From Polyangiaceae bacterium (GTDB lineage: Bacteria > Myxococcota_A > Polyangia > Polyangiales > Polyangiaceae): a stretch of 64,000 nucleotides of DNA. The notes beneath the pieces are model-generated. The model did no database searches. It saw nothing but the letters and a program-made list of their open reading frames with translations, and was not told where the DNA came from. A program made the translations under genes and the position numbers. The stretch lies in contig JALHPN010000016.1 of the NCBI GenBank assembly GCA_022842465.1, positions 1 through 64,000 of the forward strand, given 5' to 3'. This document shows positions 13,327 through 21,497 of this stretch, one piece after another (the first letter of the stretch is position 1; each line of letters starts with the position of its first letter).

Positions 13327-13575
13327 ATGCTGCGGCGCGCCACTCCCCGCTCGATCCCGCCGCTCGTCGGCGAGGGGATGGTCACGAGGACCCTCCGGGT
13401 CCCGAGCCGGGAGGTCGTGTTCGTGAAGGGTGTGGTGGAGGCCCACGACGGCCTCGCGCAGCTCTTCGCCGAGCACGGCGGCGACCTCACGCTCGCCTCG
13501 CCGGCGGACCGGGAGGCGGAGCTCGACGAGCTCGTCCGAGACCTCGCCCGCGAGCTGGGCGGAGTGTGTGGCTGA
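13327..13575 (+). CDS. DUF4911 domain protein
   Basis: 82 residues covering one domain: residues 18-78 (MVTRTLRVPSREVVFVKGVVEA then GLAQLFAEHGGDLTLASP) match the small DUF4911 family known mainly from delta-proteobacteria, as I recall it. A GGAGG ribosome site precedes ATG 13327. The stop overlaps the GTG start of the FAD oxidoreductase by 8 bp, so the two proteins are probably made together. No function is known. Confidence 0.75.
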   Translation: MLRRATPRSIPPLVGEGMVTRTLRVPSREVVFVKGVVEAHDGLAQLFAEHGGDLTLASPADREAELDELVRDLARELGGVCG

Positions 13576-14791
13576 GCGAGCGGGCGTCTTGGCCGACTTC
13601 TCCTTCGATCTCGTCGTGGTAGGCGGAGGGCCTGCGGGCGCGACCACCGCCCTGCACCTCGTACGGCACGAAGGCATCGCGCCCCGGCGCGTGCTCGTCG
13701 TCGACAAGGCGCGCTTCCCTCGGGACAAGCCGTGCGCAGGCGCCGTCAGCGCACATGGGGTCAGGGTCCTCGCGCGGCTCGGGCTCGAGATCGGCGTGCC
13801 GCACGTCGCCATGTGCGGTGTTCGTGTGATGCTCGGTGACGCGGTGGGTGAATCGACGCTGGCGATGGGCATCGTCGCACGGCGCATCGAGCTCGACTCC
13901 TGGCTGCTCGACGTCGCCCGCCGGGACGGCGTCGTCGTCCGCGAGGGGGACGCGCTCACCGGGCTCGAGCGGATCGCGGGCGGCTTTCGTCTGACGACCG
14001 CGCGCGGCGAGGTCGTGACGACGCGCCTCGTGGCGGCGTGCGACGGCGCCGGCGGCGCGACGCGGAAGCTCCTCGGCCTCCGCGAGCCCGAGCGGAAGGG
14101 CCACCTCTACGTGCTCGAGACGGACGTGGCGCGCGCCGACGTCGGCGTACGGCGTGGCCTCGTCGACTTCGATCTCTCGGTGCTCGCGGACGGCGTCGAG
14201 GGGTATTACTGGGATTTTCCGACCGTCATCGACGGTCGGCCGGCCGTGAGCCGGGGCATCTACCACGCGAACATGACCGCGAGCCGGGAGGTGAAGGCCT
14301 CGCTCCGTCGCGCGCTCGCGCGTCGTGGGGTCGACCTCGCGAAGGTGACACCGCGTGCCTTCAGCACGCGACCCTTCGTGCGCGGCTCGGTGACGTGGGT
14401 GCCGGGCGTCGTCCTCGTCGGCGAGGCGGCCGGGATCGATCGGACGACGGGCGAGGGGATCGCGCAGGCGATGGCGATGGGAGGCCTCGCCGCGCGTCAC
14501 CTCGCCCGCGCGCTCCGCACGGGGAGCGGCACGTTCGTCGCTTATGACCACGACGTCAGGCGCTCGACCTTCGGACGACACCTCCTCGAGAGCGCGTGGC
14601 TCGCGCGCCGCGTGTACGCGCCCGCCTTCGCGCCTGCCCGCCGCTATCTCCTCCGCTCCGACTACGCGAGGAGGACGGCTCTCCGCTGGTATCGCGGCGA
14701 GAGCCTTCCGCTCGCCGCGAAGCTCCGCATGGCGCTGGAGCTAGGGGGCGACGCGGTGTCGGGCGGGCTCTCAGACCTCCGAGCGTCGTGA
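13568..14791 (+). CDS. FAD-dependent oxidoreductase of the geranylgeranyl reductase family
   Basis: 407 residues. DLVVVGGGPAGATTALHL (~15-32) is the Rossmann GxGxxG FAD site; DKARFPRDKPCAGAVSAHG is the signature of geranylgeranyl-reductase-like flavoproteins; GVVLVGEAAGIDRTTGEGI (~285) is the second FAD motif. The family reduces isoprenoid double bonds or hydroxylates/halogenates aromatic substrates, so the exact reaction is open. Start GTG 13568 overlaps the stop of the DUF4911 gene by 8 bp; this start puts the FAD motif at the normal distance from the N-terminus. Its 3' end overlaps the convergent rRNA-modification gene by 21 bp. Confidence 0.88.
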   Translation: MAERAGVLADFSFDLVVVGGGPAGATTALHLVRHEGIAPRRVLVVDKARFPRDKPCAGAVSAHGVRVLARLGLEIGVPHVAMCGVRVMLGDAVGESTLAMGIVARRIELDSWLLDVARRDGVVVREGDALTGLERIAGGFRLTTARGEVVTTRLVAACDGAGGATRKLLGLREPERKGHLYVLETDVARADVGVRRGLVDFDLSVLADGVEGYYWDFPTVIDGRPAVSRGIYHANMTASREVKASLRRALARRGVDLAKVTPRAFSTRPFVRGSVTWVPGVVLVGEAAGIDRTTGEGIAQAMAMGGLAARHLARALRTGSGTFVAYDHDVRRSTFGRHLLESAWLARRVYAPAFAPARRYLLRSDYARRTALRWYRGESLPLAAKLRMALELGGDAVSGGLSDLRAS

Positions 14792-16867
14792 GCCGACGTC
14801 GTCGTCGTCGGCCACGAGCTCGTCCGGCCGGAGCGACGGTGCACCCGAGTCGACGATGTCGATCGCGCTCCCCCTGTCACTCTGTCCGTCGGGCGGCGGC
14901 GGGAGGCTCGAGCCTCCGTGGCCGAGCGCGTTCTTGTGGTCGAGGAACCGCAAGGTGCCGGGGCCGCTCGTGCGCTCGAGGACGGCGCGGAGATCGCCCG
15001 GCATCGGCGCCTCGACGATCATGCGTTGCCCCGACGACGGGTGCTCGAACTCGAGGCGCACGCAGTGGAGGAACGTGCGATCGAGCGCGTTCTTCTCCTC
15101 GAAGTAGCGGTTGGTCGGCGGGTGCCCGTAGCGCTCGTCGCCGAGTACGGGGTGACCGATCGCGGCGAGGTGCCGGCGGATCTGGTGCATGCGCCCCTGC
15201 TCCGGGACGACGCGGAGGACGCTGTGCCCGCTCGCGACCGCGAGGCGTCGGTAGCGCGTGCGCGCGGGGAAGAGCTTCCCGTCCTCGCGGAGGTCCCGCG
15301 CGATCGCGCCCTTGCTGGGCGTGACCCCGCGCGCGCCGGCGACGTAGACCCTGCGTGACGTCTCCGCGTTGCTGACCGCCTGCCAGCGCGCGAGCGCGTC
15401 CGGCCGGCGTACGAACATCACGAGCCCGCTCGTCCCGACGTCGAGGCGGTGGACGGGCACGGCCTCGGACGACCCGGGCAGGCGCCTCACCCGCGCGAGG
15501 AGCGAGCTCGCGTACTCGCCCTGCGGCGTCGTCGGCTCGTGGGGCCCCTTGTCGACGATGACGAGCTCGTCGTCCTCGTACGCGATCTTCGCCCCCGGCA
15601 GCCCCACGCGGCGGAGAACGGCGATCGTCTCCACCTCGTCCGTGAGCGGGATCATGTCGAGCGGCCGAAGCGTCGACACGCTCCAGCCGAGGCGGACGAA
15701 GTGGTCGAGATCGCGCGCGAGCGTGTCGGGATCACACGAGACGTACGCGAGCGTGGGCACTTCGAGCCGCCCGAGCAGCTCTCGCGCGAGGGGGCTCATC
15801 CCACGGCGCGGAGGATTCACGACCGCGGCGTCGAAGGCGATCCTGCCGTCGACGAAGCGTCGCAGCGCCGAGGCGACGTCGCTCGCCTCCGCTCTCACCT
15901 GGAGGCCCTGGGCCTTGGCCGCCTGCTCCGCGTGGGCCGCGGCCGGAGCGAAGGACTCGACGAGGTGCACCTCCGCCCCCGCGTGCGCGAGCGACAGAGC
16001 GATCGCGCCCGAGCCGCCGTAGAGATCGACGACCTTCACCGTGCGGGTGCCGATGCCGAGCAGCTCGACGAGCGCGCCGTGCACGCGCTCGGCTTGCCCT
16101 CGATGCGCCTGCACGAAGGACCCGTACGTCGCCTGGTGCGTGGACCTGCCGAGGTGGTCGCTCGCGGCCGCGACGCCGTGGATGACGACCGTCTCGTTGC
16201 CGAGGATCTGCGGCGACTCGCCGTCGTGGAAGTTCGCCGCGACGCCGGCGACGGGCGCCATCGCCGTGAGGTCCTTCGCGCGTGCCTGGAGGACCTCCTC
16301 GCTCGCGGCCCGCCCGCGCTGGAGGACGAGCGTGACGAGGACGCGGCCGACGTCGCTGCCGGCGTCGCGCACCTCCCGGAGGTCGACCGCGCGGAGGGCG
16401 CCCTGGCCGGCGGGGTCGAACGGAGCGAGCGGACCTCCGGTCGCCTCGTCCTCGACCACGAGGGTCCGCACGGCGGTGGCCACCGCGGTGAGTGCCGGAG
16501 AGAGCACGCGGCAGTTCGGGATGTCGACGACCTGGTGGCCGCCACCCTTGGCGTAGAGGCCGACCCGGCCGCCGTGGGCGACGATCAGCTTGGCGCGCGT
16601 ACGGTACGAGACGATCGGCTCTGCCGGTGCGACGGGCTCCGTGTACGCGAGCTCGAGCGCCGCGTAACGCGAGGCGGACTGGACGACCCGACCCCGCTTC
16701 AGCGCGAGCTGCTCACCGTAGGGCAGCCCGATGATCGGGCAGCCACCGCAACGGTCGGCGTGCTCGCACGTCACGCGCTCGTACGCGCGCTCGCCGTCGA
16801 GGCCCGAGAGCCCCGAGAGGAGGCTGTCGGTCTCGCCTGGGAGACGAGGCCTGGACGGCGGCAGCAT
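14771..16867 (-). CDS. Fused 5-methyluridine methyltransferase / pseudouridine synthase
   Basis: 698 residues combining two RNA-modifying enzymes. Residues 1-~425 are a TrmA/RlmC/RlmD-type m5U methyltransferase: Fe-S cysteines C34, C40, C43 and C119 (CEHADRCGGC plus PNC), YGSFVQAH (~248), SAM motif DLYGGSGAIA (281-290), NPPRRGM (351-357) and nucleophile Cys378 in VSCDP. No TRAM domain precedes it, as in RlmC. Residues ~428-640 are an RluA-type pseudouridine synthase with no S4 domain: VHRLDVGTSGLV with catalytic Asp476, QGRMHQIRRHL (~557-567) and GDERYG. A 50-residue acidic, disordered tail follows. Both active sites are intact. ATG 16867 is preceded by TAGACT. The target is inferred to be 23S rRNA. 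Confidence 0.93.
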   Translation of the reverse strand: MLPPSRPRLPGETDSLLSGLSGLDGERAYERVTCEHADRCGGCPIIGLPYGEQLALKRGRVVQSASRYAALELAYTEPVAPAEPIVSYRTRAKLIVAHGGRVGLYAKGGGHQVVDIPNCRVLSPALTAVATAVRTLVVEDEATGGPLAPFDPAGQGALRAVDLREVRDAGSDVGRVLVTLVLQRGRAASEEVLQARAKDLTAMAPVAGVAANFHDGESPQILGNETVVIHGVAAASDHLGRSTHQATYGSFVQAHRGQAERVHGALVELLGIGTRTVKVVDLYGGSGAIALSLAHAGAEVHLVESFAPAAAHAEQAAKAQGLQVRAEASDVASALRRFVDGRIAFDAAVVNPPRRGMSPLARELLGRLEVPTLAYVSCDPDTLARDLDHFVRLGWSVSTLRPLDMIPLTDEVETIAVLRRVGLPGAKIAYEDDELVIVDKGPHEPTTPQGEYASSLLARVRRLPGSSEAVPVHRLDVGTSGLVMFVRRPDALARWQAVSNAETSRRVYVAGARGVTPSKGAIARDLREDGKLFPARTRYRRLAVASGHSVLRVVPEQGRMHQIRRHLAAIGHPVLGDERYGHPPTNRYFEEKNALDRTFLHCVRLEFEHPSSGQRMIVEAPMPGDLRAVLERTSGPGTLRFLDHKNALGHGGSSLPPPPDGQSDRGSAIDIVDSGAPSLRPDELVADDDDVGSRRSEV

Positions 16868-17587: not shown

Positions 17588-17885
17588 CGATTGGTATCCC
17601 TCGGGGCGCAGCCACGCGAGCCGTCGTCCGGCCGCGCTCGCGTTTTCGTGCGCATGTGTCCGCCGGTGTCGTTCGGGGGGAGCGGGCCGTCGTCCGCGTC
17701 CCTGCCACCGCGCGGGCTGGGTATCGGCTGCAACGCGTGTACCGCTCGGGCGCCGGTCCGGACCGCGGCGTGCTCGCGCGAGGGCTCGTCCGTCCCGAGG
17801 GTGAAAACCGCGCGCGGCGGGTTCGTCGGGCCGGCTGGCAGCTCGAGCGACCGTGAGCCGACCCAGCCTCGATGACCCCGAGCCT

Positions 17886-17907
17886 CCCGAGGACAGGGGT
17901 CCTCGGG
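17886..17907. promoter_or_regulatory. Perfect 9-bp inverted repeat upstream of ECF sigma gene
   Basis: CCCGAGGAC, loop AGGG, GTCCTCGGG. No T-tract follows. It lies about 95 bp before the sigma factor start and could be an operator, a 5'-leader hairpin or a terminator of an unseen transcript. Confidence 0.45.
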
Positions 17908-17986
17908 GCTGGGGAATCGTTCCACCAGGTCGGGCGTCGCGAAACCGACGCGCCGCACCGGCGTATCCGGTGCATGCTGCTCGCGT

Positions 17987-17993
17987 GGGAGGA
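17987..17993 (+). promoter_or_regulatory. Ribosome binding site GGGAGGA deciding the sigma factor start
   Basis: GGGAGGA with 7-nt spacing to GTG 18001. It favours this start over the ATG at 17974 and the far-upstream ATG at 17872. Confidence 0.6.
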
Positions 17994-18000
17994 CGCCATC

Positions 18001-18639
18001 GTGACGCGGCTCTCTCATGTCGTCCTTCGTGATACGAACGGCGCCGTGCCGAGGGACTTGACCGGGGATGGCGAGAGCGCGCTCCTCGACCGCGCGATGG
18101 ATCGCTACGCCGCGGGCGAGGACGCCTCCTTCGCCGAGGTGTACGACCGGCTCGTCCCTCGCCTCTACGGCTTCCTCCTCCGTCAGACGCGGGACCACGC
18201 GCGCGCGGAGGACGTCGTGCAGCAGACGATGCTCCGCATCCATCGCGCGCGTGACCGGTTCGAGCCAGGCGCGCGCGTGCTCCCGTGGGCGTTCGCGATC
18301 GCGCGGCGCCTGCTCGTCGACAGCTACCGGCGCGGCGGGCGGGAGGTCCTCGTCACGACGACGGGAGAGGACGACGAGGATCCCTTCGCCGCGATCGCGT
18401 CGGTGGACGCGCCCGCGGACGACGTCGCGGCCGCGCGCGAGCTCGCGTCGCGGATCGCGGCGGAGCTCGAGCGCCTGCCGGAGAACCAGCGCGTCGCCTT
18501 CGAGCTCCTCAAGCAGGAGGGGCTCAGCGTGGCGGAGGCGGCGGAGGCCCTCGGGACGACCGCGGCTGCCGTGAAGCTCCGCGCCCATCGCGCCTACGAA
18601 GCGCTCAGGGCTGCGCTCGGGATCGGAGAGCGGCGATGA
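18001..18639 (+). CDS. ECF-type RNA polymerase sigma factor
   Basis: 212 residues from GTG 18001. Region 2 spans about residues 35-100 (FAEVYDRLVPRLYGFLLRQ ... AEDVVQQTMLRIHRARDRF ... PWAFAIARRLLVDSYRR); region 4 spans about 155-205 (LERLPENQRVAFELLKQEGLSVAEAAEALGTT ... VKLRAHRAYEALR). There is no region 1.1 or 3, so this is a group IV (ECF) sigma factor that directs RNA polymerase to a specific regulon when released from its anti-sigma factor. The next gene overlaps it by 4 bp (ATGA) and encodes an NrsF-like membrane protein, the expected anti-sigma partner. Confidence 0.93.
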   Translation: MTRLSHVVLRDTNGAVPRDLTGDGESALLDRAMDRYAAGEDASFAEVYDRLVPRLYGFLLRQTRDHARAEDVVQQTMLRIHRARDRFEPGARVLPWAFAIARRLLVDSYRRGGREVLVTTTGEDDEDPFAAIASVDAPADDVAAARELASRIAAELERLPENQRVAFELLKQEGLSVAEAAEALGTTAAAVKLRAHRAYEALRAALGIGERR

Positions 18640-19347: not shown

Positions 19348-20829
19348 ATGAGTCACACGCCGCGCATCCTCATGGTCTCCTCGGAGGTCGAGTCGCTCGC
19401 GCGCACGGGCGGGCTCGGTGACGTCGTCGAGGCGCTCTCGCTCGCCGTCGCGCGTGGCGGCGCGCACGTCATCGTCGTGACGCCGCTCTACGGAGTGTCC
19501 CGCGTCCCGAAGGAGCGCACGCGGTGGCCGCGCGCGGTGCCCGTCCGCCACGGGTGGGGAGCGGACGACGTCAGGCACCCGGGCGTCGTGGAGCTCGAGA
19601 CGACGCACTTCCCTTCCGGGGGCACGCGGCGCATCTGCTTGATCGACGACCCTGGGCTCTATGCCCGCTCCGGGATCTACGGCGACCCGTGGGGGACGTT
19701 CGGGGACAACGCGCTCCGCTTCGCGGTGCTCTCGCGGGGCGCGCTCGAGATCGCGGGCCGCGCGTGGGACGGCGGTCCCGACGTCATCCACGCGCACGAC
19801 TGGCACGCCTCGCTCGCGGTGATCTACGCGCGGACGGTGATGGGAGAGCGCTGGGCGCGGACGCCGTCGGTGTTCACGATCCACAACCTCTCGTTCCAGG
19901 GCGTGCTCGGCGAGCACATGGTCGACCAGCTCCACGTCCCGCGCTCGCTGCTCACGCCTTCGGTCCTCTGGCACGAAGGCCAGGTGAACCTGATGAAGGG
20001 CGCGACGGCGCTCGCGGATCGGGTCACGACGGTGAGCCCGACCTACGCGCGGGAGATCCTCACCCCCGAAGGAGGCTTCGGCCTCGACGAACACTTGCGG
20101 GCGCATTCGGCGAAGCTCGTCGGGATCGTCAACGGCATCGACACGGAGCGCTTCGACCCGGCGAAGGACGGCTGTCTCGGGTTCCGCTTCGACGCCGGCA
20201 CGGCGTCGCACGGGCGGGCCGCGTGCAAGAAGGCGCTGCGCGCGGAGCTGGGCCTCGCGGACGGCGACGGTCCGCTGTTCGCGACGGTGTCGCGGCTCAC
20301 GTGGCAGAAGGGGATCGACCTCGTGCTGCCGCTCTTCGCGGATCTCGTGTCTCGTGGCGCGAAGGTGGTGGTGGTGGGGCAGGGGGAGACCTGGCTCGAG
20401 GATCAGCTCGTCTCGGCGCAGGCGCGCTTCCCGGGCGACGTGGCCGTGAGGATCGCCTTCGATCCCGCGCTGTCACGGCGCGTGTACGCAGCCGCCGATT
20501 TCTTCCTCGTGCCGTCTCGCTTCGAGCCGTGCGGTCTCACGCAACTCTATGCGATGCGCTACGGCGCGATACCGATCGTGACGGACGTGGGAGGGCTCCA
20601 CGACACGGTGCAGCCCGCGTCCGCGGATGGCGGCGCGGGCACCGGCTTCGTCGCGCCGCGCGCCGAGGTGGGCGCGATGCGGGCGGCATGCGTCGCGGCG
20701 TGCGAGGTCTTCGGCGACCGCGAGGTCATGGCGAAGATCCGCTCGCGGGGGATGCAGGCGGACGTGTCGTGGAACGCGCCGGCGCGGGAGTACCGCGCGC
20801 TCTACGAGACGCTCCGGCGTCACGCCTGA
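19348..20829 (+). CDS. glgA: Glycogen (starch) synthase, GT5 family
   Basis: 493 residues, normal GlgA length. It transfers glucose from ADP-glucose to an alpha-1,4-glucan end. GT5 marks: N-terminal SSEVESLARTGGLGDV, DVIHAHDWHASL (~150), FTIHNLSFQG (~178), TVSRLTWQKGIDL (~312), and the C-terminal nucleotide-binding block SRFEPCGLTQLYAMRYG (~390). The acceptor loop usually reads KTGGL; here it is RTGGL, a conservative Lys to Arg change at a substrate-contact residue. No other glycogen gene is nearby. It follows the sigma/anti-sigma pair with a 49-bp gap, and its 3' end overlaps the convergent pseudouridine synthase gene by 10 bp. Confidence 0.93.
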   Translation: MSHTPRILMVSSEVESLARTGGLGDVVEALSLAVARGGAHVIVVTPLYGVSRVPKERTRWPRAVPVRHGWGADDVRHPGVVELETTHFPSGGTRRICLIDDPGLYARSGIYGDPWGTFGDNALRFAVLSRGALEIAGRAWDGGPDVIHAHDWHASLAVIYARTVMGERWARTPSVFTIHNLSFQGVLGEHMVDQLHVPRSLLTPSVLWHEGQVNLMKGATALADRVTTVSPTYAREILTPEGGFGLDEHLRAHSAKLVGIVNGIDTERFDPAKDGCLGFRFDAGTASHGRAACKKALRAELGLADGDGPLFATVSRLTWQKGIDLVLPLFADLVSRGAKVVVVGQGETWLEDQLVSAQARFPGDVAVRIAFDPALSRRVYAAADFFLVPSRFEPCGLTQLYAMRYGAIPIVTDVGGLHDTVQPASADGGAGTGFVAPRAEVGAMRAACVAACEVFGDREVMAKIRSRGMQADVSWNAPAREYRALYETLRRHA

Positions 20830-21497
20830 CGCGGCGCCGCTCCGGCGAGCCCCAGCTTCTCCAGCGCGCGGCCGAGGTCGTCCGGGAGCGCGGCGCTCAC
20901 CGCCACCTGCTCGCCCGTCATGGGGTGCGCGAACGTGACGCGCGACGCATGGAGCGCGAGCCGGTGGAGACCGTAGACGGCCCGATAGTGACGGTTGATC
21001 ACGCCCGACCCGTAGCGGACGTCCCCGACGAGCGGGTGCGTGATGTGGCGGAGGTGCCGCCGTATCTGGTGGAGCCTCCCCGTCCGCGGCCGGGCGAGGA
21101 CCAGCGAGCAGCGGTCGACGCTCGACGCGCCGAGGCGCTCGAAGTCGGTCACCGCGGAGACGCGTGGCCCGTCCTCCTTCTTCGGGATGGCGTAGTCGAT
21201 CGTCCCGGCCTCGGGCGGCACTCCGCGCACGAGGGCGAGGTACTCCTTGTCCACCGCGCGTTCCGCGAACGCCACGGAGAGCACCGCCGCGACCTCCGAG
21301 CTCCGCGCGAGGACGAGCGCGCCGCTCGTACCGCGGTCGAGCCGGTGGACCGGGTACACGTACTGGCCGATCGCGTCGCGCACGCGGAACATGGCGACGT
21401 CGTCGTCGTCGCCCCAGCCGCGGTGCACCACGAGCCCCGCCGGCTTGTTGGCGACGACGACGTGCTCGTCGACGTAGAGGAGCTCGATCCCGTCCAC
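20820..21497 (-). CDS. RluA-family pseudouridine synthase, TruC-like
   Basis: 225 residues without an S4 domain. VHRLDRGTSGALVLAR (~50) contains the catalytic Asp, TGRLHQIRRHLRHITHPLVGD (~140, split) is the RNA-binding loop, and YGSGVINRHYR followed by GLHRLALHA resembles TruC, which makes pseudouridine 65 in tRNA. It lies 7 bp after asnS on the same strand, so the two translation-related genes likely form one transcript. Confidence 0.88.
   Translation of the reverse strand: MDGIELLYVDEHVVVANKPAGLVVHRGWGDDDDVAMFRVRDAIGQYVYPVHRLDRGTSGALVLARSSEVAAVLSVAFAERAVDKEYLALVRGVPPEAGTIDYAIPKKEDGPRVSAVTDFERLGASSVDRCSLVLARPRTGRLHQIRRHLRHITHPLVGDVRYGSGVINRHYRAVYGLHRLALHASRVTFAHPMTGEQVAVSAALPDDLGRALEKLGLAGAAPRQA

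Follow-up and report, generated by a model that had tools for sequence, protein, structure and literature searches.

Fusions of two rRNA-modifying enzymes are, to our knowledge, few. RlmKL (YcbY), a fused bifunctional 23S rRNA methyltransferase, is a precedent for two such activities on one polypeptide, both of them methyltransferases and neither a pseudouridine synthase (PUS). The gene described here combines a 5-methyluridine (m5U) methyltransferase and a PUS in one protein. It was found in a stretch of 64,000 nucleotides from a Polyangiaceae bacterium of the phylum Myxococcota (assembly GCA_022842465.1, contig JALHPN010000016.1, positions 1 to 64,000), referred to below as the window. By sequence and predicted fold, this is one protein belonging to one tailed clade, with intact catalytic residues here and decay of the PUS half elsewhere; from this we infer its target sites, a docking role for the PUS domain and the activity of the fusion protein. 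No paper describing an m5U methyltransferase joined to a pseudouridine synthase was found in the open-licence literature, and within that scope the fusion is an undescribed union of known enzyme families, with an unusual history.

Comparison with known enzymes

E. coli RlmC (RumB), which forms m5U747 of the 23S rRNA, resembles the methyltransferase half in its m5U chemistry and Fe-S cysteines, in the NPPR motif, in the length of central-domain linker A, which is long in both, and in the lack of a TRAM domain. It differs in having no PUS tail and in falling, in the best tree, into a clade separate from the tailed enzymes. RlmD (RumA, m5U1939) and RlmCD (m5U747 and m5U1939) have the superfamily and the catalytic residues in common with the fusion, and S. 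pneumoniae RlmCD is the nearest solved structure to the methyltransferase half by both sequence and fold. These enzymes carry an N-terminal TRAM domain, which the fusion lacks, and no PUS. According to PMC6235398, bacterial rRNA has m5U at U747 and U1939 and nowhere else, RlmC is without TRAM, and TRAM helps to hold the RNA in RumA.

On the side of the PUS half, E. coli RluA (psi746 of 23S rRNA and psi32 of tRNA, psi being pseudouridine) shares the family fold, the catalytic Asp, Tyr and Arg and the absence of an S4 domain. Unlike RluA, the domain studied here is fused; in the best tree it is not part of the RluA clade, and RluA is the lowest-scoring of the four E. coli equivalogs. E. coli TruC (tRNA psi65) has RRH and NR motifs past the active site in common with the fused PUS, which differs in forming a clade of its own; moreover, a separate TruC-like gene is present in the window.

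Gene and protein architecture

The fusion gene occupies positions 14771 to 16867 on the minus strand, a strand that the first-pass annotation had not named, with an ATG start at 16867 and the stop codon at 14771-14773. It is supported by a single frame, full-length homologues and a predicted model. In the encoded protein of 698 residues the two halves, first the methyltransferase and then the RluA-family PUS, are separated by about 6 residues, and its structure was predicted with confidence (pLDDT 86, pTM 0.84).

The methyltransferase half (residues 33-420; 15608 to 16771, minus strand) was delimited by domain searches, fold comparison and trees. It starts at the Fe-S cysteine motif, with C34, C40 and C43 at 16739 to 16768 and C119 at 16511-16513. 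Domain searches gave no match to a TRAM domain in the fusion protein, in which the Fe-S motif is reached already at residue 34. The nucleophile is Cys378 (15734 to 15736) and the general base Glu413 (15629 to 15631), aligned to E443 of S. pneumoniae RlmCD. The PUS half (residues 427-632; 14972 to 15589, minus strand), recognized by domain searches, fold comparison and tree, has no S4 domain. Its catalytic Asp476 (15440 to 15442), Tyr508 (15344 to 15346) and Arg564 (15176 to 15178) align to RluA D64, Y96 and R165 respectively. Upon alignment with E. coli RluA, RluC, RluD and TruC, the HRLD-TSG motif, Tyr508 and the GRMHQIR motif were all intact, and both these catalytic motifs and the fold place the domain in the RluA family. 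A C-terminal extension (residues 640-698; 14774 to 14950, minus strand), defined by alignment A1 and the predicted model, contains the sequence LRFLDHKNALG, conserved among near kin in the same alignment; residues 655-698 are predicted to be disordered (pLDDT <50).

The first-pass annotation had described one 698-residue protein with a complete methyltransferase and a complete PUS, without TRAM or S4 domain, and with Fe-S cysteines 34, 40, 43 and 119, nucleophile Cys378 and catalytic Asp476. All of this was confirmed: the frame is single, the domain searches agree and the residues are present here and aligned in relatives.

Distribution of the fusion

A collection of 377 Myxococcota genomes was searched with the fusion protein, by locus reading and with a profile of the tail. 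The first-pass annotation had suggested looking for both domains in one protein across the phylum, and they were indeed found there: at least 74 of the 377 genomes contain this methyltransferase with a PUS-derived tail, 60 by the tail-profile search and 14 more by locus reading or alignment. In this count genome G150 was judged on alignment alone, and G352, with an N-terminal piece only, was left uncounted. Homologues covering both halves occur in many families, and in the window's own family a homologue search found the fusion in 30 of 35 genomes. Among the 43 loci listed in a scan of named genomes, at least 10 have counterparts of both halves, six of them in records named as Myxococcota; another of the 10 (L045) was labelled Myxococcota in the trees. 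None of the 164 matching records in a plasmid collection spans 80% of the fusion.

The source genome is a draft in 431 contigs, which would be consistent with two genes joined by an assembly or annotation error, the sequencing join that the first-pass annotation had considered. The same architecture was found in the near-complete one- and two-contig genomes G177, G339 and G355 and in the complete chromosome of Minicystis rosea, as well as in metagenome-assembled genomes (MAGs) of Sorangium and Byssovorax. With the first four genomes at hand, such an artefact was rejected and is given practically no weight.

In genome G168 the fusion gene is split between two contigs (L125, L092), each piece lying away from the contig ends; the N-terminal one leads into a Ser/Gly-rich repeat. 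In each of G314 (L031, L096) and G163 (L037, L099) two tailed methyltransferases were found, the PUS being dead in one and the HRLD motif damaged in the other, which is long-tailed. A free RluA-family PUS adjoins the fusion on the opposite strand in one further genome (G226:C124:5386-6036).

Unequal fate of the two halves

A total of 104 loci were read, of which 77 had a tail of more than 100 aa, and the tails were aligned with the four E. coli enzymes. Loci L035, L044, L047 and L050-L053 (contigs duplicated by other loci), L046 (a Sorangium MAG) and L125 and L126 (N-terminal fragments) were not taken into this reading, and six short loci were swapped for longer sequences (L171-L176). Four of the 77 tails (L019, L020, L022 and L023) are near-identical. 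A PUS was called intact when Asp, Tyr or Phe, and Arg were all present.

The triad was complete in 39 of the 77 tails and broken in 38, the latter being a low count of losses, as L018, L031, L037 and L090 were counted as intact despite other motif damage. The catalytic Asp itself is retained in 43 tails and lost in 34. According to PMC7822408, this Asp is the only absolutely conserved residue and is essential in all known pseudouridine synthases, its mutation inactivating P. putida RluA. The methyltransferase residues were counted in the 72 tailed proteins with a whole methyltransferase half. Cys378 and Glu413 were invariant (72/72 each), and the Fe-S cysteines were found in 67 (C34, five gaps), 70 (C40, two gaps), 70 (C43, two gaps) and 72 (C119) proteins. 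A joint importance of the two activities does not agree with the many relatives that have a broken PUS triad and an intact methyltransferase.

Broken tails fall into two kinds: long ones with damaged motifs, and short ones, of about 130-195 residues, that have lost the HRLD lobe. Short tails have a mean identity of 61% with 17 invariant positions, and match the intact fused PUS with an E-value of 1.3e-18. A short-tail profile gave 62 matches over the 377 genomes at E<=1e-8, 22 of them the profile's own members; all lie at tailed-methyltransferase loci, and no free-standing PUS was among them. Genome G203, met through this profile, proved on reading to have a short-tailed methyltransferase. Pfam PseudoU_synth_2 was found in all 22 long-tailed fusions of alignment A1 and in none of the 20 short-tailed ones. 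Annotation by family model would label some dead PUS forms as live and miss the short remnant entirely.

The label intact or dead changes eight times on the methyltransferase tree. Since regain of a deleted catalytic lobe is unlikely, these changes read as repeated loss of PUS catalysis rather than regain. The family offers natural variants on the same methyltransferase, with intact, point-broken and half-deleted PUS domains, on which one can study whether such an enzyme owes its retention to the reaction it catalyses or to its hold on RNA.

State of the PUS half in this genome

With losses this frequent, the PUS half of the window's protein might itself be an inactive structural remnant, as in relatives. 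To this we assign a small probability: its HRLD-TSG, Tyr and GRMHQIR motifs are complete, the PUS fold is confidently predicted, and among intact kin the PUS half is conserved more than the methyltransferase. For the last point, each half of a relative was compared with the corresponding half of the window's protein and the PUS/methyltransferase identity ratio was taken. The median ratio was 1.18 for 34 intact tails, 0.78 for 13 dead tails of at least 185 residues and 0.92 for 24 shorter ones, a division at 185 residues by which the half-deleted L175 was counted as long. The difference between intact and dead long tails had a Mann-Whitney p of 1.6e-4, which is optimistic since the rows are related. 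Because of the higher ratios of intact kin, the PUS half here is read as being under constraint, and it is probably active.

Kinship of the two halves

A methyltransferase tree was made of 68 domains, including 42 of the 77 tailed rows, and a PUS tree of 74 RluA-family domains, including 35 of the 39 intact tails. A branch (96/98) separates the 42 tailed methyltransferases from the RlmC proteins of E. coli, Vibrio, Georgenia and Actinomyces as well as from the unfused enzymes. In the PUS tree, the 35 intact fused domains form one clade (100/99). The simplest reading of both trees is a single fusion event in a common ancestor, inherited thereafter.

The halves had been called RlmC-like and RluA-like in the first-pass annotation. 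Both enzyme families are right, but orthology to RlmC or RluA was neither demonstrated nor rejected by the trees and the approximately unbiased (AU) tests, which gave p 0.31 for tailed methyltransferases together with RlmC, p 0.33 for fused PUS with RluA and p 0.45 for fused PUS with TruC. The fusion protein scored below the cut-offs of the curated models of RlmC (158 bits versus 558) and RlmD (149 bits versus 183.55). TrmA was the weakest of the listed m5U models (28.5 bits) and of the listed m5U folds. The PUS half stayed below the cut-offs of both RluA (53 bits, cut-off 286) and TruC (76.8 bits, cut-off 328). TruC was the best of the NCBIfam equivalogs, and the TruC, RluC and RluD models all scored higher than that of RluA. 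The best tree places it in its own clade, outside RluA and outside TruC, and its closest folds are RluC and RluD, tied.

RNA targets

Of 41 family genomes, 39 have a TrmFO match above the cut-off, among them the source genome; with this usual m5U54 enzyme in place, that tRNA position needs no further one. At least 18 of the 32 fusion genomes compared had a separate RlmD over the cut-off; among the matches listed, six of the others had a weaker second match, the source genome, G276 and G041 had no second match of note and five were undecidable. E. coli RlmD forms a group (98/98) with four separate RlmD proteins of fusion genomes (L201, L203, L204 and L209). Of 96 genomes of the order, one, G115, contains a true RlmC, defined by E<=1e-45 to the E. 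coli enzyme. This protein (L230, G115:C12:462792-463901) is 45% identical to that of E. coli and was perhaps acquired from outside. As TrmFO covers U54, RlmD is often separate and RlmC is nearly absent, U747 is by elimination the best guess for the methyl target in most fusion genomes, with U1939 also possible in the source genome. The lengths of the central-domain linkers were dropped as an argument for U747: linker A, which here has the long form of RlmC and RlmCD, is short in several tailed relatives, and linker B does not discriminate.

The TruC scores might suggest a tRNA T-arm enzyme instead, forming m5U54 with its methyltransferase and psi65 (or psi55) with a TruC-like PUS half. TruC is the best equivalog, and the AU test accommodates a clade of fused PUS and TruC, but the distribution of TrmFO makes a role at U54 unlikely and TrmA is the weakest match in both comparisons. 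In addition, the window contains a free-standing TruC-like PUS gene (20820-21497, minus strand; 209 bits against the TruC cut-off of 328), which groups with E. coli TruC. This gene lies 4 kb from the fusion, and its product is 35-38% identical to the fused PUS half. We regard the T-arm enzyme as very unlikely.

U746 and U747 were present in all seven Myxococcota 23S rRNA genes read; the source genome's own 23S rRNA was not found in its assembly. As the seven include G150, with its dead fused PUS, base identity does not discriminate the target, and helix-35 identity was dropped as evidence. No match over the cut-off of the RluA model was found in the 96 order genomes, a narrow cut-off designed around RluA of the E. 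coli type and passed by E. coli alone of 14 controls. Psi746 is unclaimed by an RluA match in these genomes, yet not thereby assigned, and psi746 as the product of the PUS half is a guess. At E. coli position 955, a RluC target uridine, the 23S rRNAs of G339 (L162) and G292 (L163) have A and that of G150 has C.

The first-pass annotation had tentatively paired psi746 with m5U747, which a bifunctional enzyme could form in the same 23S loop during a single binding event; the fusion would then exist for the sake of both activities. The presence of both uridines, the two intact catalytic centres in the window's protein and the lack of a visible free RluA for psi746 speak for this. We nevertheless consider it unlikely, though a serious contender, given that G150 keeps both uridines with a dead PUS, that the RluA cut-off is so narrow, that RluA orthology was not established by tree or AU test and that the methyltransferase is retained in the 38 relatives with a broken triad. 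Moreover, two neighbouring uridines can hardly occupy separate active sites simultaneously, and modification of both in one visit would require a hand-over. Of the proposed pair, m5U747 is the one favoured by elimination.

Proposed function

The account we favour, and hold to be moderately probable, is that of an rRNA m5U methyltransferase without TRAM, widely distributed in Myxococcota, targeting U747 and derived from one ancestral PUS fusion, in which the PUS serves first as a docking module, is catalytic here and has been lost as an enzyme in many relatives. A PUS would have joined once to the C-terminus of a TRAM-less rRNA methyltransferase, in the common ancestor of the tailed lineages. 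The methyltransferase would be the function kept in these lineages, an Fe-S enzyme in which Cys378 attacks the uridine, S-adenosylmethionine (SAM) provides the methyl group and Glu413 acts as the base, most likely at U747 in helix 35 of the 23S rRNA. The PUS domain is most likely first of all an RNA-docking and positioning module, a role it would have taken over in the TRAM-less enzyme. In this genome it probably also forms one pseudouridine nearby on the same RNA, with U746 as the obvious candidate. In many relatives PUS catalysis has been lost, and in one clade the tail is reduced to its conserved C-terminal half. A docking role would account for the tail being kept past the loss of catalysis, for the C-terminal half being the kept part and for the methyltransferase remaining unbroken, and the proposal needs no pair of reactions in one binding event. 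More tentatively, an rRNA methyltransferase may have recruited a PUS for RNA recognition, and this PUS may then have lost its chemistry several times, one clade keeping a new, Pfam-invisible PUS-derived domain (T..FF..K.GL.R.F.H ... PLHGDL) that steers the TRAM-less methyltransferase; the window's protein would be a still-bifunctional form.

Several observations weigh against U747 and docking. TRAM-less methyltransferases without a tail exist, namely E. coli RlmC and, in the same order, L228 (G249) and L229 (G258); a stand-in for TRAM is therefore not strictly needed, and with the latter two lacking both, a coupling of TRAM loss to the tail was rejected. L231 (G387) also has no tail, with 75 residues ahead of its match. 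Compared directly with the four E. coli enzymes, the short tails give a weak match (hhalign probability 37%, E 3.5e-4); it is the fused PUS that links them. A same-genus genome, G036 (98% complete), has neither the fusion nor a clear RlmD, with a single weak TIGR00479 match (E 1.1e-7), and the enzyme is therefore dispensable. In genome G115 the fusion coexists with both RlmC and RlmD; the argument by elimination breaks down for this genome, where the fusion may act otherwise. The G115 fusion (L090) shows damage in the HRLD motif and sits on the longest branch within the fused PUS clade, as could be expected had RlmC made the enzyme redundant, although one case proves nothing. The near-absence of RlmC on one side, and the TRAM-less tailless enzymes and G115 on the other, left our estimate unchanged. 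The residues specific for U747 in RlmCD (F145, Q162 and N249) are conserved neither in E. coli RlmC nor in the fusion, whose NPPR motif, shared with RlmC, also occurs in the TRAM-bearing free enzymes L108, L109 and L111.

Other points against U747 lead towards RlmD. The RlmD model matches the fusion nearly as well as the RlmC models do, the G276 fusion itself exceeds the RlmD cut-off (185.2 bits), and the best tree puts the tailed clade nearer RlmD, weakly (70/65), and not with RlmC, a grouping with p 0.31. The source genome has no separate RlmD over the cut-off, and the enzyme here might serve U1939 too. An RlmD/RluD-type pair, with m5U1939 and one of psi1911, psi1915 and psi1917 in one stretch of domain IV, would fit these data and the RluC/RluD-like fold of the PUS half, and 23S positions 1939, 1911, 1915 and 1917 are identical to those of E. 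coli in six of the seven genomes, all that were readable there. Such a pair is distinctly unlikely in view of the separate RlmD of at least 18 of the 32 fusion genomes, four of these proteins grouping with that of E. coli. The fusion also lacks the TRAM that, according to PMC6235398, helps to hold the RNA in RumA, and a free PUS of the source genome (L007) adjoins E. coli RluD in the tree (97/15).

Neighbouring genes

A geranylgeranyl-reductase-like flavoprotein is encoded at 13430-14791 on the plus strand, convergent with the fusion gene, the ends of the two genes overlapping by 21 bases. Upstream of the fusion gene and divergent from it, an ECF-type sigma factor is encoded at 17872-18639 on the plus strand.

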